Assembly: GCF_030490285.1 (NCBI RefSeq)
Contig: NZ_CP129884.1
Coordinates: forward strand, 124,001 to 188,000
Origin: Methylomonas montana
GTDB lineage: Bacteria; Pseudomonadota; Gammaproteobacteria; Methylococcales; Methylomonadaceae
Reading direction: 5' to 3'
Length of the DNA: 64,000 nt
Part shown: piece after piece, positions 45,450 to 59,155 of the stretch
How the letters are laid out: each line of letters opens with the position of its first letter
Position numbering within the stretch: position 1 is the stretch's first letter
The notes under the pieces: generated by a model
What the model was told of the DNA's origin: nothing
The model's database searches: none
Seen by the model: only the letters and a program-made list of their open reading frames with translations
Translations under genes and position numbers: made by a program

Positions 45450-46980
45450 GATCTGGGCCGTTCATATGGTGGCGATGTTCAGGATAATGTTCGCCGATTT
45501 CCTTGGCTTCCTGATCGATATATTTCAACCAGGGTGTGGTGTAAAAACCGGTGCCGATCAGCAGGCCGCATATCGTCACGGCAATGATACGTTCCTTGAC
45601 TACCGGGTGGTGAATGCTGCCGTAAGGCTGCACGAAGCGTCTGGGGTGGGCGATGAACAGCCGCTGGAACGCCCAGAGCAAAAACGCCGCCCCCAACACG
45701 TTGCCCAGCAAGATCGCAATCGCAATATACCAACCGTGTTCCTCGATAGTGCCTTCGATCAGCAAATGCGCCGCATCGAAGCCCGGCGTGCCGGGCATCA
45801 CCATCGTGCTCAACGCCGAAATCAAAAATAGCAAGGCGATCGTCGAATTGGTTTCGAACAATCCGCCCAGACGCGGTAGAAACGAGGTGCGGGTGCGTTC
45901 GTAAATCAAACCGATGCTGAACAGCATGCCCGCCGTGGCCAGGCCGTAGGCAATCGACAACAGAATGCTGCCTTCCAGCGCAAAATCGTTGAACGAAAAC
46001 ACGCCGATGACCAGCATGCCGGTATGGCTGATCACCGCGAATGCCAGCAGCCGGCGCATATTGATCTGCATCAACGCCAGCAAGGCGCCGTAAAAAATAC
46101 CGATCAGCCCCAGGTCGACCACAAAATGTACCCATTGCTCGGCGGCGCCCGGTACTAGCGGCAGGATGAAACGAATCATCGCGTAAACGCCCAGTTTCAA
46201 ACCGGTCAGAAATATTGCCACGCTGGCAGCGGTGCCGTGTTCGGCCAACAAAGGCAGCCAGGCGTGAAACGGAAACAGCGGCGTACGCACCGCAAAGCCG
46301 AAGAACAGCAGGATGAAAATCAGGGTTTCGTTCGGGATAGCCAGGTTGTGATGCTTCAAGATTAGCCAGTCGAAACTCAGGTCCATGCCGCTTTGCGCCA
46401 AGCCGAAACTCAGCAAGACAAACCCCGCCAGACTCATCGCCAAGCCGGACAGCCAGTATTGCAACACCGCTTTCACCACCCGGTTGCGTTGCTTGCCGGT
46501 ACCGGCGGAGATCGTCAATAACACCACCGGTACCAGTTCCAGCAAGCACCAGAACCAGAATTGCAGCGTATTCAGCGCCGCGAATGCGCCGATCAGAATG
46601 CCTTGATAAGCCAATAGACAGGCCATGAACAAACGGTCTTGGTGATGGCGGGTGATCAAGGTATAGACCAGCGCCAGCAATCCCAGAATCGCGGTCAGCG
46701 GAATGAATAAAATATTGGTGCCGTCGACGCCGACCCGGTAATTCATGCCGAACCATTGAAGATGCTCGGCAAGATGGATGCCCGGTGCCCGGGAGTCGAA
46801 GATCAGCAACAGATAGATGCTGAGCAGCACGTTCAACAGCGCGCCACCGAAGGCTAGTCGCACGCTGTAAATCGGCTTGGCGAGTACTACCGCCAGCATG
46901 GTCAGCAGCGGTACCAGCGTCAAAACGGTGAGCAAGGGCACGGCGGCCACCGCGGACCAGAAAACAATATCGGTATTCAT
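45442..46980 (-). CDS. NuoM-like proton-conducting membrane subunit
   Basis: 512 residues with about 14 membrane helices. The conserved acidic site reads WCLLELVPVVLL near residue 142 and the lysine-helix reads FLTGLKLGVYAMIRF near residue 252, preceded by FHAWLPLLAEHGTAA where canonical NuoM has EAP. The tail is histidine-rich (EHYPEHRHHMNGPDHD), which could bind metal or protons. The start overlaps the NuoL-like stop by four bases and its end overlaps the next NuoM-like gene by eight, so the three are translated as a set. Confidence 0.8.
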   Translation of the reverse strand: MNTDIVFWSAVAAVPLLTVLTLVPLLTMLAVVLAKPIYSVRLAFGGALLNVLLSIYLLLIFDSRAPGIHLAEHLQWFGMNYRVGVDGTNILFIPLTAILGLLALVYTLITRHHQDRLFMACLLAYQGILIGAFAALNTLQFWFWCLLELVPVVLLTISAGTGKQRNRVVKAVLQYWLSGLAMSLAGFVLLSFGLAQSGMDLSFDWLILKHHNLAIPNETLIFILLFFGFAVRTPLFPFHAWLPLLAEHGTAASVAIFLTGLKLGVYAMIRFILPLVPGAAEQWVHFVVDLGLIGIFYGALLALMQINMRRLLAFAVISHTGMLVIGVFSFNDFALEGSILLSIAYGLATAGMLFSIGLIYERTRTSFLPRLGGLFETNSTIALLFLISALSTMVMPGTPGFDAAHLLIEGTIEEHGWYIAIAILLGNVLGAAFLLWAFQRLFIAHPRRFVQPYGSIHHPVVKERIIAVTICGLLIGTGFYTTPWLKYIDQEAKEIGEHYPEHRHHMNGPDHD

Positions 46981-48548
46981 CGGTATCCCAGCGCCACCAT
47001 CAGGGTAATCAAGACAAACAGCGCCAGATAGCGCGGCTGCAACAATAACTGCTCGAAGCGGTTGGCGGCCTGACCCAGCCGGCGGCCGATCCGAATCGAA
47101 TCGCGGCCGATGCCGCGCAAAATGAAGTGATATTCAAACCAGTTCAGTAAGGCGGCCGTCCACTGCGCCAGTTTGCCGGCCAGGCCGCTGCCTTGCGCGA
47201 AGCTGTCCTCGGCGCTATCCAGGTTGGCGCCCATTTTTTGTTCTTCCCATTCTGCCAGCGAGGACACGGCCTTGATCGCCGGTGCCGGCGCGCCCAGAGC
47301 GGGATCGACGATGTACTCGTCGATATAACGCACATCCTTGGCCAGTCTCAACACCGGCTTGACCAGCAACCAATCCATCGCCGGCTCCAGCCAGCCGCGC
47401 TGCAAGGAGGCGACAAACGCCCAGCGGCAATTCGCCAGGATAGGCGCGACAGGCGCTATCGGTTGGCCATGGGTGTTGTGCAGGATGGACGGCGCGGTCA
47501 GCAGCAGATAACAGCGCACCACGGCATGGGCGCCCAGATGCCAGGCCGCCAAGTCCCAAAATCCCAGGCCGCATTCGACGAACATCAAGCCTAACTGTGC
47601 GGAGGTCGCGAAAATCTGCGAGCTTTTAATGTCGGTTTGGCTCAAGCCCACCCAATAGCTGTAGATTGCCGTCAGACCGCCAACCACCGCCAGCAGCAGC
47701 ATCGCCAGCGGCGCCTGCATAAACAATGGCTGTAATTGAATCACCAAAAACACTCCGGCATGGATTATCGTGCCGCCGTAAAAAATCGCGCTGGACGGTG
47801 TCGGGCCTTCCATCGCTCGGGCCAGCCAAGGCGTAAACGGAATCTGCGCGGATTTAGCAAATGCCGCCAAGGCAAAGCTCAACGCCAGCAGCGTGGCGTC
47901 GCCCGGATCGAGATCGTTGGCGCTGAGATTGATGAATTGCCAGTCGGCGCTTTCCAGCCAAGCCAAGGACAGGCATATCGCCAGGATAAAACCGCAATCG
48001 CCGACGCGGTTGGTGACAAACACGCGGGTGGCGTTATGCGCGGCGATCGGCCTGTCGTAGGCGTAGGCGATCAGCCAATAGGAGCAGACCCCGGCGATTT
48101 CCCAGGCAATAAAGGTGAACACCGCGTTGCCGGACAACACCAATAGCAGCATCGCCGCCGCGAACAGACTAAGGATGAAAAAAAAGCGGTGGAAACCGGC
48201 CTCGCGGTGCATGTAATTCACCGAGAAACGCATCGCGATTAATAGTAGCAATGAGAACACGCTGGCTAGCGCCAGATTGAAACCGCCGGTCGTCAGTTTG
48301 AAGGCGATTGTCAGCTTGCCGCTGCTCAGCCAGGTGCCGTAAGTGACCGAATCGGCGAGCTGGCCGGATAAATCGGCCGTTAATAAGGCCAATGCTGTCA
48401 GTACCGACAGAGCGATAGCCGTAACGGCGAGGCGCGCGCTGGTTTTCTCGCCGGCTTCGCCGCCGACAATCCGGAAAAAATTTAGGCCGCCAATCAATAC
48501 GGCGGCCAGCAACGGCAACAGCGGAATTAGAAACGCCCAGACAGCCAT
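46977..48548 (-). CDS. dabB: NuoL-like (DabB-type) proton-conducting subunit
   Basis: 523 residues from ATG 48548, with GGAG nine bases upstream. The NuoL signature is clear: FIAWEIAGVCSYWLIAYAYD near residue 145, AKSAQIPFTPWLARAMEGPT near 228, and PSSAIFYGGTIIHAGVF next to it. After the last antiporter helix comes a C-terminal extension (YIDEYIVDPALGA near residue 415, then charged helices and a final membrane helix), like the lateral arm of NuoL. It begins one base after the dabA stop, as expected for the DabB partner of DabA. It would provide the proton flow that powers DabA. Confidence 0.82.
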   Translation of the reverse strand: MAVWAFLIPLLPLLAAVLIGGLNFFRIVGGEAGEKTSARLAVTAIALSVLTALALLTADLSGQLADSVTYGTWLSSGKLTIAFKLTTGGFNLALASVFSLLLLIAMRFSVNYMHREAGFHRFFFILSLFAAAMLLLVLSGNAVFTFIAWEIAGVCSYWLIAYAYDRPIAAHNATRVFVTNRVGDCGFILAICLSLAWLESADWQFINLSANDLDPGDATLLALSFALAAFAKSAQIPFTPWLARAMEGPTPSSAIFYGGTIIHAGVFLVIQLQPLFMQAPLAMLLLAVVGGLTAIYSYWVGLSQTDIKSSQIFATSAQLGLMFVECGLGFWDLAAWHLGAHAVVRCYLLLTAPSILHNTHGQPIAPVAPILANCRWAFVASLQRGWLEPAMDWLLVKPVLRLAKDVRYIDEYIVDPALGAPAPAIKAVSSLAEWEEQKMGANLDSAEDSFAQGSGLAGKLAQWTAALLNWFEYHFILRGIGRDSIRIGRRLGQAANRFEQLLLQPRYLALFVLITLMVALGYR

Positions 48549-48549
48549 A

Positions 48550-51500
48550 TCACAAGACTCCTGCAAAATCGGCTTGCTTAATCAACATCGGTGCGACCGG
48601 CTGAGTATCGTTTCGATAACAATCCGGCGAACTGTCGCGCAATGGTAAATCTACGGTTTGCGCTTGCCAGGGCGTAAAACCGATACCGCGCTGAAACACA
48701 AATATCTCGCCGCTGTCCGGGTCCTTGGCACTGAGATGCACCCAGCCGCCGCCGATCAATTCCCGCAAGCTTTCTTGCCGGTCGTAAATTTGTTCCAGCA
48801 CCGCAGTCTTGGCCTCGACGACGATCTGCAAGCGCATTGCCTCGTGGATTTCGATCATCTGTCGGGGCAGGCCGGTGCGCAGATCGCTGCCGGCGCCTTC
48901 CATCACCGCGAAAAAGCCGGTCAGGTTGTGCGGCACTTTTGAACCGCAACCCAGCCGCTCGTTATTGACGGTGGAGAAATAATATTCTAGATTGATGCCG
49001 GCGCCGACCGGGCCGACCGCCAACAAGATGCCTTCCAGCACCGTACCGTCCGGGTCCTGGCTGGGATCGTAGGAAATCAAGAACAAGCGGCGGTCGAAAA
49101 ACGCGCCTTGCGTCAGCGAACGTCTGCCCACCAGCGCGGAGGCATTGGTGGCGTGGCCCAGCTCCGGGCGGGCTTGCGAGAAATCGGCCGAGCGGCCCTG
49201 AAAATGCCGCAAAGCCTGTTTCGGCGACGGCCGCCGAGGTGCCGACGCCAGCCGCCGGCAGCGCTCGTGCGCCGACATAAGTTGGGCATGGCGCATTTGC
49301 TCGACAAACCGGTCCAATGCCGGTTGGCGAGCCGCCGGTACCTCGGCGTGGTCATACCAAATAATCTCTTCGTCGCAGGTATTGTGTTCGGCGCCGATAA
49401 ACCAAGTGTCGTCCGGGATAACGATATTCCGTTCTGCTAACAATTTGCGCACCTCGGGACGATTCGCCATCGCCGCGAACAACCTGGCGTTCGGCCCGCC
49501 GTGACGGCCGCTACAGGCGCCGCAATCGTAAGCCGACAAATGCGGGTTGTTCTGACTCATCGAGCCATGGCCCATCAACACTACCAATTCGGCAAAGCCG
49601 TAGCTCAGGCCGGTATTGCGCAGAAAGCCGGCGACACGCTCGGCTTGCTCCTGATCGGTAAAACCCAGGCGCGGCTGCTGGGGCGTGGCCGGGGCGGCGT
49701 TGTCGGTCGCAGTAAAATGCAAGTGTGTATCTACTTCGGGTGCGATCTTTTCGGCACTCGCTGCTAGCAATTGTTGCTGGGTTTTCGGAAAGAAGCTTTT
49801 AGCCAGCAAGCCCAGCAAGGCCACCGGCGCGATGGTGTTGATCAACGGAAATGCCAGCAAGGCATTGCGGCGCAGACCGTGATGGAGCAAATTGGCGATA
49901 GCTTGTCTCAAGGTCCGGCCGTGGCGGTGGTGGGCGACTACATTTTCCTGGCCGGGCAAGCCACATTCCTGAACGTTATGGGCAGGTACCACCACCACCG
50001 GGCACAGCGGCGTCAGCCTGGTATCGTCCAGCCCTTGATAATTCATAGGCACACCGAAGAAGCCGGCGGCGCCCAGCGTTTCGACGGCGGGGTTTAGTTC
50101 TTCCAGGTGGCGGCGGATACCTTCCTCGCGGTCGTCCATGCAAAACACGATTTGCGCCTCCGGGCGACTGTCGCGTTTTGCCCAGCGCCCCCGGCCATGA
50201 TTGGCATGCAGGGCTTGCAGCAGCTCTTGCTGATAATGGCGTTCGTAAGCATTCAGCCAGATATTGCTTAGCTGGACTGCGCCGAGGCTGTCGATCACAT
50301 CCAGCCAGGCCAGCAATTGGGATTTATCGAGATGTTGCAAGGCAGTCGCGCTCAATTCCAACTGCTGGCAGACGCGGAACAGCCGCCAGCCGTGGTTGTA
50401 TACGCTTAAAACGGCGGCTGTCGCGTCGGTTGCCAAAGGGCTGTGTTGCCAGATCCAAATGCGTTCGGCCAGCGTTTGCCAGGCTGATTTATCGCGCGAA
50501 GCTTCATTTAATAAAGATTGACCGGCGAGGGCCAGATACTCCGGCAAACAACCTTGAAACAAGGCCTGTCTGACCGAAAATTCGGCTAAATTTTTTGAAA
50601 AATAGCTTTGCAGCTTGTCCAGATGCGCCTGGCAATGCCATTGCCGGCGGCAGAGTTGTTCCGCGTAAAGCCGGTCCAGCGTCAAGCGTATCGCCAGATA
50701 ATCCGCCAATAGCGGTTTGGTTTCGTCGTCGGCTTGATAGCCGGGATGAGTTTGCCGCCAGTTAATCAGGCCGGACCAGCCGGGCAGTTCCAAGGCCAGT
50801 CTTTGCAGATAGCCTGGCCACTGTAGTTGCGGAATCGCCAGCGCGTCGAGTTGTTGGGCGATGGCGTCGACAGAGTCCTCGGGCAGCGCATCGGTGATGG
50901 TTTGCCAATCGCTCAGTTCCTGGAAAAACGGTTGGGCATCGAAGCTCAAGCTGTGCCGCCAGGAGTGGTACAAACCCAACTCCTGCCGCTGCGGCAAACG
51001 CCAGGCCGCCAGCCCTTCGTCGAGCAGGGACGCGCACAGCCGGATCAATTGCGGGCGCACCGCGTCCAAAACGTCCTTACCGGTCAAGGCCAGCAGCAAA
51101 CCGCGCAAGCTCAGGCTCTCGCCAACTTGCGAAAACAGCATGGCTAGATTCTCGGCGGCGTGTAACCGCATCGGCAGCTCGGCGCTGGCATCGGCTTGAT
51201 GCGGCAACCATTGTTGGATTTGCTCGCCGGACAAATCCAGCAAATCTTCCGGATGCAGTTCGGGCATGGCTAATTCCAGCTTGTTCAGCAGGGTATGCCA
51301 CATCGTGCGCGACGCCGCGTCATTCAAAGTACCTAGCTCGTTCACTTGCCAATCGAATTGGGCAGGCGTCAGTATCTGCAAGTCACATAGCAAGGCTAGC
51401 CGGTAGAGTTGTAGATGGGTGACAGTTTTGTCGCCGACGTCGCCAAGCGCGGTTTGTAACAAAGCCCCAAACTGTTGCCCCAGTACCGCGTCGAGGTCGC

Positions 51501-51747
51501 TATCGGTTATCCGGTCTTGCCGATAAAGCTCGCGGAATTGTTCGGCGGTTAGATAACAGCTTATGCCGGTCAGTGCGCTGAATTCCGCCAAGGCCTGTTC
51601 GAACGGCAGATGTTGAAAGCCGTGCAAGGTGTTGTGATGCACGAAGTCGTGTATCGGCGCCTGTCCCGGCAGCACATGATCCAGGTGATGGATCGCGTCT
51701 ATGATAATTTGTCGTGGGGACAGAGTGCTTGCAGAGAATGCCGTCAT
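48550..51747 (-). CDS. dabA: DabA-type inorganic carbon subunit (DUF2309)
   Basis: 1065-residue protein of the DUF2309/DabA family. The family start FVHHNTLHGFQHLPFEQAL is near residue 34. The carbonic-anhydrase-like zinc site is intact: C536 and D538 in VFCMDDREEG, H727 in MGHGSMSQN and C742 in YDCGACSG. The spacing (two and fifteen residues) equals that of the proven ligands C351/D353 and H524/C539 in Halothiobacillus DabA. It would hydrate CO2 to bicarbonate in a one-way manner, driven by the proton-conducting partner. It is about 200-250 residues longer than the Halothiobacillus protein, mostly before the active site. A hairpin-rich gap precedes it. Confidence 0.9.
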   Translation of the reverse strand: MTAFSASTLSPRQIIIDAIHHLDHVLPGQAPIHDFVHHNTLHGFQHLPFEQALAEFSALTGISCYLTAEQFRELYRQDRITDSDLDAVLGQQFGALLQTALGDVGDKTVTHLQLYRLALLCDLQILTPAQFDWQVNELGTLNDAASRTMWHTLLNKLELAMPELHPEDLLDLSGEQIQQWLPHQADASAELPMRLHAAENLAMLFSQVGESLSLRGLLLALTGKDVLDAVRPQLIRLCASLLDEGLAAWRLPQRQELGLYHSWRHSLSFDAQPFFQELSDWQTITDALPEDSVDAIAQQLDALAIPQLQWPGYLQRLALELPGWSGLINWRQTHPGYQADDETKPLLADYLAIRLTLDRLYAEQLCRRQWHCQAHLDKLQSYFSKNLAEFSVRQALFQGCLPEYLALAGQSLLNEASRDKSAWQTLAERIWIWQHSPLATDATAAVLSVYNHGWRLFRVCQQLELSATALQHLDKSQLLAWLDVIDSLGAVQLSNIWLNAYERHYQQELLQALHANHGRGRWAKRDSRPEAQIVFCMDDREEGIRRHLEELNPAVETLGAAGFFGVPMNYQGLDDTRLTPLCPVVVVPAHNVQECGLPGQENVVAHHRHGRTLRQAIANLLHHGLRRNALLAFPLINTIAPVALLGLLAKSFFPKTQQQLLAASAEKIAPEVDTHLHFTATDNAAPATPQQPRLGFTDQEQAERVAGFLRNTGLSYGFAELVVLMGHGSMSQNNPHLSAYDCGACSGRHGGPNARLFAAMANRPEVRKLLAERNIVIPDDTWFIGAEHNTCDEEIIWYDHAEVPAARQPALDRFVEQMRHAQLMSAHERCRRLASAPRRPSPKQALRHFQGRSADFSQARPELGHATNASALVGRRSLTQGAFFDRRLFLISYDPSQDPDGTVLEGILLAVGPVGAGINLEYYFSTVNNERLGCGSKVPHNLTGFFAVMEGAGSDLRTGLPRQMIEIHEAMRLQIVVEAKTAVLEQIYDRQESLRELIGGGWVHLSAKDPDSGEIFVFQRGIGFTPWQAQTVDLPLRDSSPDCYRNDTQPVAPMLIKQADFAGVL

Positions 51748-52072: not shown

Positions 52073-53545
52073 TCACGGCAACCTCTCCCCCATCACCGCC
52101 AACATCTTCCCCACCGTCGCGGTAGACAACTCGATCAAAGGGGCCGGTAATAGGCCGAATAACACGATGCCGCCTACCAACACCCCGGAAGCCATCAGTT
52201 CCACCGGTTTCAGGTCGGCGATGTCGCGCATCTGCGGTTTCACCGGACCGGTGAACAGCAAACCGATGGTGCGCATCGCGTAGGCGGCGCTGATCAGGAT
52301 GCTCAGGCTGAAAAACACCATCAAACCGCCCCATTGTTGAAAGCCGCCGATGATGGTGTGCAACTCGGCGATGAAACCCACCGAACCGGGCAAGCCCATC
52401 GCCGCGAGTAGCGTCAAGGTGGTAAAGGCCGCGAAGCGCGGCATCACTTGCACCAGCGAGCTGTAATCCTGGATGTTGCGGGTGTGGGTGCGCTCGTAAA
52501 GCAGGCCCACCAGCAGGAATAATGCGCCGGCGATCAGGCCGTGGGCGGTCATTTGCAATATCGCGCCGGTGAAGCCGGTCTGGTTCAGCGCAGCAATGCC
52601 GAGCAACACTACGCCCATATGACTCAGCGACGAATAGGCCACCATCGCTTTCAGGTCGCGCTGCCGCCAGGCTAACAGGCCACCGTAGATCATGCCGAAC
52701 AAGGCCAGGAACACCAACAAAGGTTGAATCAGCTTGGCGGCCACCGGCAACATCACCACCGAACGCAGCAAACCGTAGGCACCCATTTTCAACAGAATGC
52801 CGGATAGCAGGATGCTGATTGGGCTGGGCGCTTCGACGTGAGCCAGCGGCAACCAGCCGTGCAACGGGAAGATCGGCATCTTGACCCCGAAACCGATCAG
52901 AAAGCCCAGCAGCACCAATACCTGTTCGACCACCGGCATGCTTTGCGCGGCTTGACCCATCGATGCCATCAAAGAGCCTTGATGTTCCAGATCGTACTGG
53001 CTGATCGCCAGTAAACTGAGCAGCATGAACACCGAGCCGCCCATGGTGTACAGCACGAAATTCAAGCTGGCGGCGTGGCGGCGTTTACCGCCCCAGCGGT
53101 CGATCAGGAAGAACAGCGGGATCAGCGTGACTTCCCAGAAGATGTAAAACAGTGCCCAGTCTTGCGCCATGAACACGCCGAGCATGCCGAATTCCAGCAG
53201 CAGAATGGAGATGTGATAACCCTTGATGCCGTCGGACAGCGAGAACGACGCCAACAGGGAAATGGCGGTCAGTAGCGTGGCTAGCACCAGCATCGGCATT
53301 GAAAGTCCATCCACGCCCAAGGCATAGGCGCTGCCGAGCTTGGGATTGAGCGGATAAAACTCACTGAATTGCAATGCGGTATTGGCGGCATCGAAATCGG
53401 CCAATACCCGGCAGGCCAATAAAAAGGCCAGTAAACTGAAGAGGTTGGCTATGGTTCTAATCAACCGGCTGTTATGGCCCGAAACCAATACCAGCAGGAT
53501 TGCCCCCAGCGCCGGGGTCCATAGCAGCGCGCTTAACATCACCAT
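52073..53545 (-). CDS. NuoM/NdhD-like proton-conducting membrane subunit
   Basis: 490 residues from ATG 53545 (ATG 53539 is equally possible; no good ribosome-binding site). About 14 membrane helices. Closest of the three to canonical NuoM: FYIFWEVTLIPLFFLIDRWG near residue 118 with the conserved Glu, HGWLPLAHVEAPSPISILLS near residue 215 and GILLKMGAYGLLRSV near residue 236 with the lysine. A weak promoter (TTGGCT at 53602-53607, TAGAAT at 53577-53582, long spacer) lies upstream. It is the first gene of the minus-strand run, separated from dabA by the hairpin element. Confidence 0.8.
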   Translation of the reverse strand: MVMLSALLWTPALGAILLVLVSGHNSRLIRTIANLFSLLAFLLACRVLADFDAANTALQFSEFYPLNPKLGSAYALGVDGLSMPMLVLATLLTAISLLASFSLSDGIKGYHISILLLEFGMLGVFMAQDWALFYIFWEVTLIPLFFLIDRWGGKRRHAASLNFVLYTMGGSVFMLLSLLAISQYDLEHQGSLMASMGQAAQSMPVVEQVLVLLGFLIGFGVKMPIFPLHGWLPLAHVEAPSPISILLSGILLKMGAYGLLRSVVMLPVAAKLIQPLLVFLALFGMIYGGLLAWRQRDLKAMVAYSSLSHMGVVLLGIAALNQTGFTGAILQMTAHGLIAGALFLLVGLLYERTHTRNIQDYSSLVQVMPRFAAFTTLTLLAAMGLPGSVGFIAELHTIIGGFQQWGGLMVFFSLSILISAAYAMRTIGLLFTGPVKPQMRDIADLKPVELMASGVLVGGIVLFGLLPAPLIELSTATVGKMLAVMGERLP

Positions 53546-53640
53546 TGTTATCGTTGTAAGTCCAATACAGACCGGCATTCTAACGACATTTGGTTGAAAA
53601 AAGCCAATTTTGGAAAAAACGGTTTAAATAAACCAATTTG

Positions 53641-53746: not shown

Positions 53747-54499
53747 ATGCGCAACAACGTTACGCTATTTAACAGCGACCATCATCGCTATATTTTATTG
53801 AACGAAAGCGAGCCTGGCGAGGAAGACGGCATTCCGTCCAACCAATATCTGATTGTCCACAACGGCAAGGGCACCTTGATGGATCCGGGCGGTTTCGGGG
53901 TGATGCCTCAAGTGCTTAACGAAATGCTGCAATATCTGAATCCGGACGATATCGAAGCCATTACGCTGTCTCATCAGGATCCGGACATCGTCGGCGGCTT
54001 AAGCAGCTGGATGAAACTGACGCCGGCCCGCATCTATGCCTCGCGCATTTGGCTGCGCTTTCTGCCACATTACGGTATTTCCGGGATGCGCCGTTTTGTC
54101 GGCATCGCCGACCAAGGCGAGTCGGTTACCTTACATTCCGGCTTGCAGCTGCAATTCGTCCCGGCGCATTTTCTGCATTCGCCCGGCCAGATCAATGTGT
54201 ACGATCCGATTTCGAAAATCCTGTTTTCCGGCGATGTCGGCGCTTCGATGGTGCCGAACGACAATTGCGAAGTTTTCGTCAGCGACTTCCAGCAACATCT
54301 GCCGTTCGCGGACGGTTTTCATAAACGCTATATGGCCTCCAACCGCGCTTTGCGTTACTGGGTGCAACAAGTCAGAAAGCTGGACGTAGAGATCATCGCG
54401 CCGCAACACGGGCCTTTGTATCGCGGCCAAGCCAAAGAGGACTTTTTGAACTGGCTGTACGATTTGCAGTGCGGCAGCGATTTGCTGGATGTCGAATAA
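53747..54499 (+). CDS. MBL-fold di-iron protein (flavodiiron/ODP-like sensor)
   Basis: 250-residue metallo-beta-lactamase-fold protein without a flavodoxin domain. Metal motifs: H76, D78 and D80 in LSHQDPDIVGG, H in PAHFLHSPGQ near residue 142, D in LFSGDVGAS near residue 164 and H in APQHGPLY near residue 222. The PAHFLHSPG block is typical of flavodiiron (FprA) and oxygen-binding di-iron proteins (ODP), which bind O2 or NO. The usual HxE/HxDH motif is HxDxD here. The next gene, a GGDEF-EAL protein, begins at the very next base after its stop, so this is most likely a gas sensor for that enzyme. Confidence 0.82.
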   Translation: MRNNVTLFNSDHHRYILLNESEPGEEDGIPSNQYLIVHNGKGTLMDPGGFGVMPQVLNEMLQYLNPDDIEAITLSHQDPDIVGGLSSWMKLTPARIYASRIWLRFLPHYGISGMRRFVGIADQGESVTLHSGLQLQFVPAHFLHSPGQINVYDPISKILFSGDVGASMVPNDNCEVFVSDFQQHLPFADGFHKRYMASNRALRYWVQQVRKLDVEIIAPQHGPLYRGQAKEDFLNWLYDLQCGSDLLDVE

Positions 54500-56650
54500 A
54501 TGGATTTCCCGACTAAAAGGCCCTCGCAGCTAAAATCGCTGCATATTCACAGCATCCGCACCTTGACCGAGTTGCTGGAAGCGCAAAACCGCACCCAGAC
54601 TTTCGAACGCGGCATTATTGACCTGGCGATACGCGAAGTCGGCAAGCTCGCCGAGCGCCTGCCGATATTGGCCGACAACCATGCCGCGAAAGCAGAAGTG
54701 GCCGGGTACGCCCGACGCTGCAAGACCATCGCCGCCAGTCTGACGCTGCTCAATCAGCAACAGGGCAAGGATGCACACAATAATTGCCGGAAGATTTCTT
54801 CCTTGATCACGGAAACCCACGAGCTGTTGCGGCGCATGGAATTGACGCTGATCGATAAGAGCCTGTTCGAGCGGCAATCGGCGGTATTGGAAAACATCAT
54901 CCTCTCCCACGAAAAAGTCACGCAATGGAAGGAGTTCGTGCAGGAAATCCTGCTGGAATTTCACGGCTTTTTTCCGTTCAATTTTTTCTCGATCGCTTTT
55001 ACCGGCGCGTCCGGCATCAGCATTTATTTGTATTATTTGGGGCAATACGACGAACAGACCAAAATCTTCGTTCGTAAGCGTTTGGCCGATAATCTGCTGG
55101 CCGAACTGAAAATTCCGGCCGACACGCTGGTGGAACTGGAAGAGTTTTTCATCACCGACATCAAGCAGCAACGCGATTTCGAGGAAATCGAAACCATCAC
55201 AGTCGGTGTGCCGGACGAGAAAGTCGGTGTCGGCGGCATTCTGGGGGTCAGTTACTCGTCCGGTTACCGTTTGACGACCCAGGAACAAAGCATCATCCGT
55301 TCGTTGCTGTCGGTGATGGTGATGGTGGTCGGTTCCAGCAAAACCTTGTCGCGCACGTTGCAAGAACTGGCCTATTACGCCGAACACGATCCCTTGACCG
55401 GGCTGCATAATCGCCGCTATTTCAATGAAATCCTCGAATACGAATTCGACCGCGCCTGCCGTCACAATGATCAATTCGCACTGTTGTCGATGGATCTGGA
55501 CAATTTTAAAGGCGTCAACGACGGTTTCGGGCACATGGTCGGCGATCAGGTGCTGATCCATCTCGGGCAGTTGTTGAAAAAGCAATTGCGCAAGGGCGAT
55601 GTGCTGGTGCGCTTGGGTGGGGACGAGTTTGCCGTGCTGCTGCCTGGCGCCGACGATCACAGCGCGCTGATCATCGCCGAATCCTTGCGGCAAGCGGTGC
55701 ACGATTTCGAATTTGAGGTCGATGGCCCTTATCGGGAGCACATCAGCCTGACGACCTCGATCGGTGTCGCCACCTTTCCGAAGGATGCGCCGGTGGTGGC
55801 CGATTTGTTGGCTGGCGTCGATTTGGCCTTGTACCAAGCCAAAAGCGCCGGTAAAAATTTCGTTTTCCCGCTACGCAGTCTGGAAACCGGCATTGCTCAA
55901 AACAAAAAAATGCTGGGCCTGTCGGAAGTCTTGAAAAAGGCCTTGAAGGAAGAGCGTATCGTGCCGTATTTTCAACCGATCATGGCTTGCGCCAGCGGTG
56001 AGTTGCACGCCTACGAAGCGCTGGCGCGATTAGCCACCGAAGACGGCGAAATCATTCCGGCCGGGGTGTTCATCGACGCCGCCGATAAATATGGTATCAG
56101 CTTGAACCTGGATCACGTGATGCTGCGCAAAGTTACCGCCTTCATGGCCGAGCAGTATGCCGAAACCGGCCAAATGCCCACCGTATTCGTCAATCTGACG
56201 CCGCAGGAAATTCAACGCCGCGACATCCTGCAATATGCGGAAAATCTCTGTCGGCAACAGCGCATCCCGCCGGAAAAACTGGTATTCGAAGTCACCGAGC
56301 GTGAAGCGATCGGCGATCTGTCCAATATGCGCAAGTTTCTCAGCAATTTGCGGGAGAAAGGCTTTGCCTTTGCGTTGGACGATTTCGGTAGCGGCTATAA
56401 TTCCTTTCATTACCTGCGCGATCTGCATTTCGAATACGTCAAGATCGACGGTGCGTTTATTTCCAATATCATGGAATCCAAGGTCGACAGTGTGTTGATC
56501 GAAAATCTCAACCGGCTTTGTCAGCAGCTGGGGATGAAGACTTTGGCGGAGTTCGTCGAATCCGAAGAAATCATGGCTAGGTTGCGGGAGATCGGCGTCG
56601 ATTATGCCCAAGGCTTTCATCTGGGCCTGCCCAGAGAACGTTTCCTGTAG
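54500..56650 (+). CDS. diguanylate cyclase/phosphodiesterase (GGDEF-EAL)
   Basis: 716-residue cytoplasmic protein without membrane segments. Residues 1-140 are helical (a possible docking part), residues about 150-290 look like a GAF-type domain (FPFNFFSIAFTGASGISIYL), then GGDEF with intact motif at residues 373-377 and EAL with the motif at 506-508 (YEALARL) and DDFGSGYNS near residue 630. Both activities could be present, controlled by the sensor part. Its start directly follows the stop of the di-iron MBL gene, so the two are made together. Confidence 0.92.
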   Translation: MDFPTKRPSQLKSLHIHSIRTLTELLEAQNRTQTFERGIIDLAIREVGKLAERLPILADNHAAKAEVAGYARRCKTIAASLTLLNQQQGKDAHNNCRKISSLITETHELLRRMELTLIDKSLFERQSAVLENIILSHEKVTQWKEFVQEILLEFHGFFPFNFFSIAFTGASGISIYLYYLGQYDEQTKIFVRKRLADNLLAELKIPADTLVELEEFFITDIKQQRDFEEIETITVGVPDEKVGVGGILGVSYSSGYRLTTQEQSIIRSLLSVMVMVVGSSKTLSRTLQELAYYAEHDPLTGLHNRRYFNEILEYEFDRACRHNDQFALLSMDLDNFKGVNDGFGHMVGDQVLIHLGQLLKKQLRKGDVLVRLGGDEFAVLLPGADDHSALIIAESLRQAVHDFEFEVDGPYREHISLTTSIGVATFPKDAPVVADLLAGVDLALYQAKSAGKNFVFPLRSLETGIAQNKKMLGLSEVLKKALKEERIVPYFQPIMACASGELHAYEALARLATEDGEIIPAGVFIDAADKYGISLNLDHVMLRKVTAFMAEQYAETGQMPTVFVNLTPQEIQRRDILQYAENLCRQQRIPPEKLVFEVTEREAIGDLSNMRKFLSNLREKGFAFALDDFGSGYNSFHYLRDLHFEYVKIDGAFISNIMESKVDSVLIENLNRLCQQLGMKTLAEFVESEEIMARLREIGVDYAQGFHLGLPRERFL

Positions 56651-56656
56651 CAACTT

Positions 56657-57121
56657 ATGCAAATACATATGATCGCGGTCGGCAACAAGATGCCGGACTG
56701 GGTGCAGCAAGGCTATAATGAATACGCCAAACGGTTGCCGCGCGAATGCGAGTTGCTGTTGAAGGAAATCGCGCCGGACAAGCGCCGTGGCGGCGACATT
56801 GCCCGGATTACCAAGGACGAAGGCGAGCGCATGATAGCGGCGCTGCCGGCCAGGGCGCATGTGGTGACGCTGGATATACCCGGTAAACCCTGGACGACGC
56901 CGAATCTGGCGCAGGCTTTGCAACGTTGGCTGGGCAATGGCCAGCCGGTGGCCTTGATGATAGGCGGCCCGGAAGGTTTGTCGCCGCAAGTCAAAGACCT
57001 GGCCCGGGAATCCTGGAGTTTGTCGCCGCTGACCTTTCCGCATCCCTTGGTCCGAGTGATTGTCGCTGAACAAATCTATCGAGCTTGGAGTCTGCTCAAT
57101 AATCACCCTTATCATCGTTAA
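56657..57121 (+). CDS. rlmH: 23S rRNA (pseudouridine1915-N3)-methyltransferase
   Basis: SPOUT methyltransferase acting on the 70S ribosome at position 1915. 154 residues, normal size. It begins [20 protein letters not shown], has the SAM-knot sequence [14 protein letters not shown] near residue 102 and ends with the conserved [20 protein letters not shown] and the His-Tyr-His-Arg tail. It stands six bases after the GGDEF-EAL gene and five before maf, starting the conserved rlmH-maf-rng run. Confidence 0.96.
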
Positions 57122-57125
57122 CCGA

Positions 57126-57701
57126 ATGAGTCCACAAATCATCCTGGCTTCCGCCTCGCCGCGCCGCAGCGAATTGCTCAAGCAGATCGGCGTCCGCCAC
57201 AGTATCATGGCGGTCGATATCGACGAAACGCCGCTGCCTAGCGAAGCGCCGGCCGCTTATGTCGAGCGGGTGGCCGCCGAAAAATCCGCGCTTTGTCTGG
57301 CGATGACCGGCGCGGCGTTGCCGGTGCTGGCGGCCGATACCAGCGTGATTTGCGACGGCCGCATTCTCGGCAAACCGGACGATTTGCAGCATGCCATCGA
57401 AATGTTGAGCCACTTATCCGGTCGCAGCCATCAGGTATATAGCGCGGTGTCCCTGCGTGGCGCCGAGCATTGGCAAGCCTTGAGCATCAGCGAGGTGCGC
57501 TTTCGGCCACTGAGCCACCAGGAAATCGTCGCTTACTGGCAAACCGGCGAACCGCACGATAAGGCCGGTGCTTACGCGATCCAGGGTCTGGCCAGCGTCT
57601 TCATCGAAGCGATGTCCGGCAGTTTTTCCGGGGTGATGGGCTTGCCGCTGTTCGAAACCGCGCAATTATTAAGCCGAGCAGGCATAGACATAATCCAATG
57701 A
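57126..57701 (+). CDS. maf: Maf-like nucleotide pyrophosphatase
   Basis: 191 residues from ATG 57126. Maf proteins hydrolyse dTTP/UTP or modified nucleotides to monophosphates. Motifs: ILASASPRRSELLKQIG near residues 5-21, the YVERVAAEKS helix near residue 48, LPVLAADTSVICDGRILGKP near residue 66, and the end GSFSGVMGLPLFE near residue 169. The aspartate of AADTSV is the catalytic acid. The stop overlaps the rng start (ATGA). Confidence 0.94.
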   Translation: MSPQIILASASPRRSELLKQIGVRHSIMAVDIDETPLPSEAPAAYVERVAAEKSALCLAMTGAALPVLAADTSVICDGRILGKPDDLQHAIEMLSHLSGRSHQVYSAVSLRGAEHWQALSISEVRFRPLSHQEIVAYWQTGEPHDKAGAYAIQGLASVFIEAMSGSFSGVMGLPLFETAQLLSRAGIDIIQ

Positions 57702-59155
57702 GCGAAGAAATATTAATTAACGTCACGCCGCCGGAAACCCGGGTGGCGGTGATCGAAAACGGCGTACTGCAAGAACTGATCATCGAGCGGGTTCGGCAAA
57801 AAGGTTTGGTCGGCAATATTTACAAAGGCGAGGTCTGTCGGGTATTGCCGGGCATGCAGGCGGCTTTTGTCGATATTGGTTTGGAAAAAGCCGCGTTTTT
57901 ACATTTATCCGATTTCAGCAGCCTGGAACTGGCGGAAAAGTCTTCGGAAAACATCGAACATTATCTGAAGGAAGGCCAAAAGCTGGTGGTGCAAGTCACC
58001 AAGGACCCGCTCGGTAATAAGGGTGCGCGGCTGACCACCGATATTTCGATACCGTCGCGTTATCAGGTTTACATGCCTTACGCCGGCAATTCCGGGGTGT
58101 CGCAGCGTATCGAATGCGAAGCCGAGCGTACCCGCTTGCGGGCCTGCATCGAAGCTTATCAGCAAAAACATGCGGTGCCGGGCGGTTTTATCTCCCGCAC
58201 CGCCGCCGAATGCGTGGAAGAGGTGATCCTGTATTCCGACATGACTTTTTTGCACAAGCTCTGGGAATCGATCCTGGATAAAAGCAAAAAGGCCAAGATC
58301 AAGTCCTTGATCCACGAAGACCTGCCGCTCAGCGTCCGTACTCTGCGCGATTTGTACAAGGACGGTATCGAAAAAATCCGAGTCGATTCCAAGGAAACTT
58401 TTCTAAGGCTGGTCGAGTTTGCCGAAACCTTCGTGCCGGAAATCGTTTCGGTCATCGAGCATTATTCCGGCGAGCGGCCGGTGTTCGACATTTATAACGT
58501 CGAAGACGAAATCAGCAAGGCGCTGGACCGCAAAGTCAAGCTCAAGTCCGGCGGCCATCTGGTGTTCGACCAGACCGAATCGATGACCACCGTGGACGTC
58601 AACACCGGCGGTTATGTCGGCGGCCGCAATCTGGAAGAAACCATCTTCAAGACCAATCTGGAAGCGGCGCAGACTATTTCCCGGCAGCTGCGGCTGCGCA
58701 ATCTGGGCGGCATCATCATCATCGATTTCATCGATATGCAGAGCGAGGACCACAAGAAACAGGTGTTGCAGGCCTTGCAGCGCAATCTGGACAAGGATCA
58801 CGCCAAGACCAAGATCACCGAAGTCTCGGCGCTGGGGCTGGTGGAAATGACCCGCAAGCGCACCCGCGAGAGCCTGGAACACATTCTTTGCGAACCGTGC
58901 TCGACCTGCGGCGGCCGTGGCGTATTGAAAACTCCGGAATCGATTTGCCTGGAAATTTTTCGGGAGATCATTCGGGTGGTCCGCCAATACAGTGTGCAAC
59001 AGATTTTGGTGCTGGCTTCAGAGCAAGTGGTGGAAATGCTGCTGGACGAAGAAGCCGACATGTTGGCCGAGTTGGAAGTGTTCTTGAAAGTCGGCATCAA
59101 AATCCGCGCCGAAGCCGAATACAATCAGGAACACTACGACGTGGTGTTGTTATAG
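57698..59155 (+). CDS. rng: ribonuclease G
   Basis: Endoribonuclease of the RNase E/G family that matures 16S rRNA 5' ends and turns over mRNA. 485 residues, no C-terminal scaffold. The S1 domain is near residues 38-125 (GLVGNIYKGEVCRVLPGMQA), catalytic metal-binding aspartates are in TTVDVNTGGYVGGRN near residue 300 and IIIDFIDMQSEDH near 345, and the zinc-link is CEPCSTCGGRG near residue 405. The overlap with maf and the next gene yhdP only nine bases on show one transcript. Confidence 0.96.
   Translation: MSEEILINVTPPETRVAVIENGVLQELIIERVRQKGLVGNIYKGEVCRVLPGMQAAFVDIGLEKAAFLHLSDFSSLELAEKSSENIEHYLKEGQKLVVQVTKDPLGNKGARLTTDISIPSRYQVYMPYAGNSGVSQRIECEAERTRLRACIEAYQQKHAVPGGFISRTAAECVEEVILYSDMTFLHKLWESILDKSKKAKIKSLIHEDLPLSVRTLRDLYKDGIEKIRVDSKETFLRLVEFAETFVPEIVSVIEHYSGERPVFDIYNVEDEISKALDRKVKLKSGGHLVFDQTESMTTVDVNTGGYVGGRNLEETIFKTNLEAAQTISRQLRLRNLGGIIIIDFIDMQSEDHKKQVLQALQRNLDKDHAKTKITEVSALGLVEMTRKRTRESLEHILCEPCSTCGGRGVLKTPESICLEIFREIIRVVRQYSVQQILVLASEQVVEMLLDEEADMLAELEVFLKVGIKIRAEAEYNQEHYDVVLL

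Follow-up and report, generated by a model that had tools for sequence, protein, structure and literature searches.

An oxygen-binding di-iron protein encoded beside a soluble GGDEF-EAL protein in Methylomonas montana: a likely two-subunit sensor-enzyme of c-di-GMP metabolism

Can a sensor of oxygen or iron and an enzyme of cyclic di-GMP (c-di-GMP) metabolism be supplied by two separate genes and still act as one regulator? The question is raised by a pair of adjacent genes in Methylomonas montana (assembly GCF_030490285.1), located in a stretch of 64,000 nucleotides of contig NZ_CP129884.1 (positions 124,001 to 188,000) that is called the window below. The first gene, at 53747-54499, encodes an oxygen-binding di-iron protein (ODP) with a metallo-beta-lactamase (MBL) fold, and the second encodes a GGDEF-EAL protein, here called the partner. 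We consider it likely that the two genes form one two-subunit sensor-enzyme, with ODP as the sensor and the GGDEF-EAL protein as the output. As expected from the original prediction, which was made from the sequence of the window alone, the MBL gene directly abuts the GGDEF-EAL gene, since the former ends at 54499 and the latter starts at 54500. The junction reads GAATAAATGG, and the stop codon is followed by ATG without a base between the two open reading frames (ORFs). This zero-gap arrangement is consistent with translational coupling.

The first protein is an ODP and not a flavodiiron enzyme. It scores 254.6 bits with the family model PF19583 (ODP, "oxygen-binding di-iron protein"; cut-off 27.2), and its top matches in the PDB are two "oxygen-binding di-iron proteins", 6qnm (262 bits) and 6qrq (250 bits), while the best flavodiiron-type chain reaches 41 bits. 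In a profile scan of the 250 residues, no flavodoxin part was matched and only MBL-type models were found. The earlier description as a flavodiiron-type MBL protein was thus correct in seeing a stand-alone MBL protein, and its label is to be changed to ODP-type on the basis of the PF19583 and PDB scores. By analogy with flavodiiron proteins, six positions are presumably the metal ligands, and all six are unchanged in 68 of 68 ODPs of this gene pair. The first metal motif had been read as HxDxD, and it is indeed HQDPD in the window. It had also been suggested that this motif may tune the site from catalysis to sensing, which is not supported: among 122 ODPs, taken from sampled genomes as well as from that of the window, the H, D and D are present in all 121 with letters at that place, and H144, D163 and H221 are identical in all 122. 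The true flavodiiron protein of the same genome (C1:925824) has HLEPD, i.e., HxExD, so that HxDxD is a mark of the ODP family rather than a tuning of this copy, and it separates ODPs from this one true flavodiiron protein of the window's genome. A special sensing variant was therefore rejected, and the earlier interpretation as a whole is right in outline and wrong in the detail of its HxDxD argument.

Linkage of the two genes supports a joint function. A scan of one genome per GTDB species, limited to genes that contain one of two conserved peptides, yielded 92 relatives, of which 80 were retained as named loci; the class and phylum profile searches described below are free of the two-peptide limit. 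Gene calling was crude (longest ORF, three start codons). ODP lies directly upstream of the partner and on the same strand in 76 of the 80 loci, ending 8-74 nt before the start of the partner profile match. Relative to the ODP stop codon, the partner ATG is at -4 to 0 (overlapping by up to 4 nt or abutting) in 34 of these 76, up to 60 nt downstream in 31, and overlaps further in three; the other eight are arranged in other ways. The ODP ORF is incomplete at two of these 76, namely, L247 (169 aa) and L266 (70 aa, at a contig start). Three of the remaining four loci break off at a contig edge, with room for only 69, 12, and 12 nt, and the last one is discussed below. The carriers include Methylomonas, Methylotuvimicrobium, Methylovulum, Methylotenera (Methylophilaceae), Gallionella, Sideroxydans, Ferrovum, Curvibacter, Rhodoferax, Zoogloea, and Azoarcus with its relatives, among others.

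The same linkage was found in other samples. In a set of 61 genomes (the window's genome and 60 relatives), 10 genomes contain the N-terminus of the partner, at a total of 11 places. Immediately upstream of every one lies an ODP with an identity of 59% or more, and conversely, all 11 ODPs of such similarity have the partner next to them. Among 369 genomes of the class, 72 have an ODP at E<=1e-20 and three, the window's included, have a strong match to the partner N-terminus, with an adjoining ODP in all three. In G152, the contig breaks off 19 nt after the end of yet another ODP of this clade, the fourth. A search of 398 genomes of the phylum gave three further strong partner N-termini, all from one family outside the class, and ODP is upstream in 3/3. 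These counts (76/80, 11/11, and 3/3), along with the ODP-GGDEF fusions described below, lend strong support to the earlier idea of a two-piece gas sensor acting on c-di-GMP. A 68-row alignment was built from the window and those 67 of the 80 loci with an ODP ORF of 240-320 aa, a partner of more than 650 aa, both output domains, and the helical profile, and a 47-row set comprises the window and 46 of these loci. In the latter, p-distances of ODP and partner are correlated (Pearson 0.76-0.83, 47 pairs; 0 of 1000 permutations as high), which is evidence of co-inheritance and not of contact.

To place this pair among other lineages, a tree was computed from 122 ODPs together with one flavodiiron protein. 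The ODPs were taken from 20 regions chosen from a longer list, 98 regions of the class search, and the window. All 14 ODPs that carry the label of this partner fall into a single clade (99/93); the label was given for a c-di-GMP neighbour and an ODP score above 350 bits, and was also given to the window, to five loci by coordinates, and by hand to L115, whose ODP lies at a contig end that hides the partner. Of the other rows, 31 are next to methyl-accepting chemotaxis protein (MCP)-like proteins, 67 showed no such neighbour (59 of them in one clade), and 10 are divergent: six of these adjoin a GGDEF protein, three adjoin a histidine kinase (assigned by Pfam at L207 and L208 and by eye at L210), and one is fused to GGDEF. 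The divergent label requires three changes on the tree, and neither the root nor the position of L211 is certain owing to the very long flavodiiron branch. Single-chain ODP-GGDEF fusions occur in three genomes (L300:1219-3321, L301:153-1976, and L302:484-2331), with approximately 200-260 residues between the two matches. Coupling to c-di-GMP is thus seen in several parts of the ODP family, namely, in this clade, in two divergent groups, and in the single-chain fusions. Residue 195 (window numbering) differs among lineages, being Trp in 31/31 MCP-linked ODPs and Tyr in 14/14 of this clade and 10/10 divergent ones, with 59 Tyr, seven Trp, and one His in the remainder; this could mark the receptor type or a tuning of the ligand.

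The MBL di-iron fold is common to true O2 and NO reductases, and ODP might instead be a scavenger of O2 (or NO) or an iron handler whose gene is merely co-transcribed, with neither contact nor allosteric control. The 67 of 122 tree ODPs with no MCP-like or GGDEF/kinase neighbour, as far as crude gene calling can tell, would fit such an activity, and some ODPs may have other roles. This alternative is nevertheless quite unlikely here: a single partner type accompanies ODP in 76 of the 80 loci, fusions of ODP to GGDEF exist, no flavodoxin or electron-transfer part was matched in ODP, and direct interaction with its receptor has been stated for the founding ODP (PMC6978683).

The partner, as the proposed output subunit, has the order N-terminal helical module, GAF, GGDEF, and EAL, in which the GAF domain is assigned by predicted fold only. 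The original prediction of intact GGDEF and EAL motifs and of a protein with no membrane part was correct on both points. In 11/11 partners of a first alignment and 47/47 of a larger set, the GGDEF signature, D332, N340, D349, and the RxxD inhibitory-site motif are unchanged, as are E506, N565, E597, E600, D627, D628, K648, E684, and Q704 of the EAL domain, positions that we take to be catalytic. The maximum hydropathy over 19 residues is 1.49, compared to 2.23 for a NuoM-like protein of the window. Judged from these residues, both cyclase and phosphodiesterase activities are possible. The literal letters E-A-L are present in 5/11 partners and are replaced by ESV, ETV, or ETL in 6/11, and proteins that look bifunctional are often one-sided; the partner could thus be a c-di-GMP effector or scaffold in a regulatory switch rather than a turnover enzyme. 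This alternative is very unlikely, given that every checked catalytic position of both domains is retained across the 47 partners.

Predicted structures were used to describe the N-terminal 288 residues of the partner, which had no Pfam match above the cut-off (no family matched more than one of 68 members) and no convincing match among PDB sequences (best E 0.026). No PAS model matched the partner, and no hemerythrin model matched either ODP or the partner. An AlphaFold model of this region based on 68 rows (mean pLDDT 73) contains helices at 8-57 and 61-138, followed by a mixed domain. VIA-align relates the mixed domain to GAF domains, with Z up to 11.3 and with Z 10.5 for the matching part of Escherichia coli DosP; Foldseek gave no match at E<=0.001 for the N-terminal model, and the GAF assignment rests on VIA-align. 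The helical part matches VIPP1/PspA-type helices with Z of approximately 9-10, scores which, as the tool warns, are common for long helices. A full-length model of the partner (pLDDT 80, pTM 0.43) was kept out of any inference on domain packing.

The helical module would be a candidate site for docking of ODP. Genes that score above 30 bits with its profile are all linked to ODP, apart from two that lie at a contig edge. In 16 class genomes, 17 weak matches to the partner N-terminus (18-71 bits) were found, 15 of which cover the GAF part and two of which (L082 and L083) cover only the helical part, and that weakly. ODP was found near none of these 17 places; 11 of the genomes have no ODP at E<=1e-20, and five carry it on a different contig or at a distance of over 50 kb. 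Within the retrieved flanks of approximately 1.5 kb, the helical profile is likewise absent from the weak places, except for one match of 18.3 bits, and the four weak-match genes that were examined all have strong membrane segments. The helical module is thus tied to ODP, and the GAF-GGDEF-EAL core also serves with sensors of other kinds. One genome (G046) has two copies of the pair (L053 and L054), the second with a divergent helical module.

In the proposed mechanism, the di-iron MBL site of ODP would load Fe(II) and bind O2, and ODP would dock on the N-terminus of the partner. The iron or O2 state of ODP may then be passed on by helix 61-138, the long one, and by the GAF domain to GGDEF and EAL, and the balance of net c-di-GMP synthesis and breakdown would be shifted. 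In this the pair would resemble E. coli DosP, with a separate di-iron protein in place of the heme PAS. That O2-loaded ODP favours breakdown is a guess, to which we lean slightly. Methane- and iron-oxidising bacteria probably use the pair to change between swimming and settling in response to oxygen (or iron). A related alternative is that Fe(II) availability or NO, not O2, is the main physiological signal of ODP. Several carriers belong to Gallionella, Sideroxydans, and Ferrovum, which we take to be iron oxidisers; others are methanotrophs, methylotrophs, Zoogloea, and Azoarcus, which are not known for iron oxidation. ODP has been described as a sensor of both iron and oxygen, the two ligands named for this family (PMC7319448, PMC6978683). 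The sequences do not tell O2, Fe(II), and NO apart, and we regard a main signal other than O2 as rather unlikely.

Several observations weigh against a two-subunit sensor-enzyme docked through the helical module. One of the 80 loci, in Ferrovum myxofaciens P3G (L289), has no ODP within 1,660 nt and still keeps the GAF-GGDEF-EAL core. The helical module is the least conserved and fastest-evolving part of the partner, with a mean p-distance of 0.67 versus 0.40 for GAF, 0.38 for GGDEF, 0.35 for EAL, and 0.31 for ODP. Segment 117-163 of the partner is strongly conserved, and 12 of 23 positions, picked beforehand as conserved with ODP, differ there from all eight aligned ODP-less sequences (from 19 loci, read on one strand); on these alignments, the docking site could be in the helical module or in this segment. 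In hhalign comparisons, the helical module gave probabilities of 3.9 and 0.2 with the MCP-like partners of ODP and with divergent ODP-partner N-termini, and its homology to partners of other ODP lineages was rejected. In addition, the effect of the pair on total c-di-GMP may be small or local, as the window's genome (4.6 Mb) has 49 GGDEF matches over the cut-off, the window's own and 48 others. With this number of GGDEF proteins, specificity must be local or conditional.

At the Ferrovum locus, the helical module is replaced by a segment that combines CxxCH, HAMP, and a membrane stretch, and an ORF with PAS adjoins in another frame. The region L289:348-3528 looks like a natural swap of the sensor on the same GAF-GGDEF-EAL core, possibly split by a change of frame.

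Partners of other ODPs suggest how such a sensor may be connected to different outputs. In one divergent group, four partners with unlike outputs (GGDEF, GGDEF-EAL, histidine kinase, and hybrid kinase) share the N-terminal stretch EK.L.MR...Y, which is what an ODP adaptor would look like. A second ODP of the window's genome (C1:800160) adjoins a protein that matches the MCP-signal model only weakly (22.6 bits; the cut-off is 34.6), an arrangement resembling that of the Treponema denticola ODP and TDE2496 (PMC7666581). Taken together, these data would fit a widespread class of two-subunit c-di-GMP switches in Pseudomonadota, in which a detachable di-iron ODP docks on an N-terminal module of a kind not described so far and thereby controls a cyclase/phosphodiesterase with both activities. 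On this view, ODP would serve as a portable gas sensor that each lineage connects, by an N-terminal adaptor of its own, to chemoreceptors, histidine kinases, or c-di-GMP enzymes, while ODP-less cores would be driven by membrane segments, in one case with CxxCH. We hold this wider reading to be evenly poised between right and wrong.

Coordinates of the pair and its parts are collected in Table 1.

Table 1. Features of the ODP/GGDEF-EAL gene pair (window coordinates; residue numbers for the ligands)
Feature	Position	Strand	Details
ODP-family di-iron MBL protein	53747..54499	+	250 aa, ATG start; PF19583 254.6 bits, PDB 6qnm/6qrq
Soluble GGDEF-EAL partner	54500..56650	+	716 aa, ATG start
TAAATGG junction	54497..54503	+	ODP stop, then partner ATG at once
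Predicted di-iron ligands of ODP	H76, D78, D80, H144, D163, H221		Analogy with flavodiiron proteins
Helical N-terminal module, residues ~8-118	54521..54853	+	Helix 8-57 and first part of helix 61-138; proposed ODP docking module
GAF-fold domain with entry helix, residues ~119-288	54854..55363	+	AlphaFold, VIA-align
GGDEF domain, residues 292-455	55373..55864	+	PF00990 157.2 bits; GGDEF 373-377, RxxD 364-367 intact
EAL domain, residues 478-712	55931..56635	+	PF00563 212.2 bits; catalytic set complete

The genes around the pair vary among carriers, and a larger conserved operon was therefore rejected. A response-regulator-like cluster, built by single linkage, touches 37 of the 80 loci; among 11 locus maps examined, L215 is the only one in which genes for a response regulator and a kinase-like protein immediately precede ODP on its strand. 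In the window, rlmH lies 6 nt 3' of the pair and is followed by maf and the gene for RNase G (56657-59155, +). In the retrieved flanks of the 80 loci, RNase G clusters only in three close Methylomonas loci; such a neighbour brings to mind the link of DosC/DosP to the degradosome in E. coli. On the other side, three divergent genes on the minus strand (52073-53578, 48550-51747, and 46977-48566) encode NuoM-like and NuoL-like proton-antiporter proteins around an ORF of 1065 aa, which had no NCBIfam match at E<=1e-10; this set resembles an inorganic carbon transporter of the DAB type. Scans for promoters and terminators found four sites each, inside the range of shuffled sequences. Viral copies of the pair were also rejected (0 of 21 candidate stretches).

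Control of c-di-GMP by O2 is known via heme PAS, globin, and hemerythrin domains (PMC8846402). Only hemerythrins were seen as di-iron sensors in the parts consulted of this 2022 census of c-di-GMP sensors, in which "ODP" was not a term searched, and a review of the same year states that no EAL-type hemerythrin phosphodiesterase is known (PMC9388753). Among the open-licence papers listed on ODP, di-iron or MBL proteins, and methanotrophs in connection with c-di-GMP, and among those citing the founding ODP work, as far as their accessible text goes, no published study of this pair was found. If the proposed function is true, methanotrophs and iron oxidisers, which both live at oxygen gradients, set c-di-GMP by a non-heme subunit. 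For the engineering of gas-gated c-di-GMP, it would also be an advantage that the sensor subunit can be separated.

Among the closest known systems is the ODP of T. denticola (TDE2498) with TDE2496, which has the same sensor family and a stand-alone ODP genetically coupled to its target (PMC7666581), and the solved ODPs 6qnm and 6qrq have the same HQDPD motif as the window protein. The T. denticola ODP is described as acting on a receptor without a sensor of its own (PMC7666581, PMC6978683). That target acts on CheA (PMC7666581), whereas the one encoded here is a GGDEF-EAL enzyme with its own N-terminal module. E. coli DosP (PdeO) has the same output order of GAF-like, GGDEF, and EAL domains, and its family model aligns with partner residues 243-710 below the cut-off of that model; its O2 sensor is a heme PAS in the same chain, whereas the pair has a di-iron protein in trans and no PAS match. 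The hemerythrin sensors VcBhr-DGC and Ferrovum Bhr-HD-GYP likewise join non-heme di-iron sensing of O2 or redox state to c-di-GMP enzymes, but do so by an unrelated four-helix fold fused in cis, for which the pair has no match. Flavodiiron proteins, such as flavorubredoxin NorV, share the MBL di-iron fold and carry a flavodoxin-like domain (PMC7785958) that the window ODP lacks. According to the description of TREND (PMC7319448, citing Muok et al. 2019), ODPs have been recruited to various signalling pathways, both in operons that include signalling genes and as fusions to signalling domains. ODPs beside or fused to signalling genes are thus already known in general, and the pair adds a conserved variant to this known kind.

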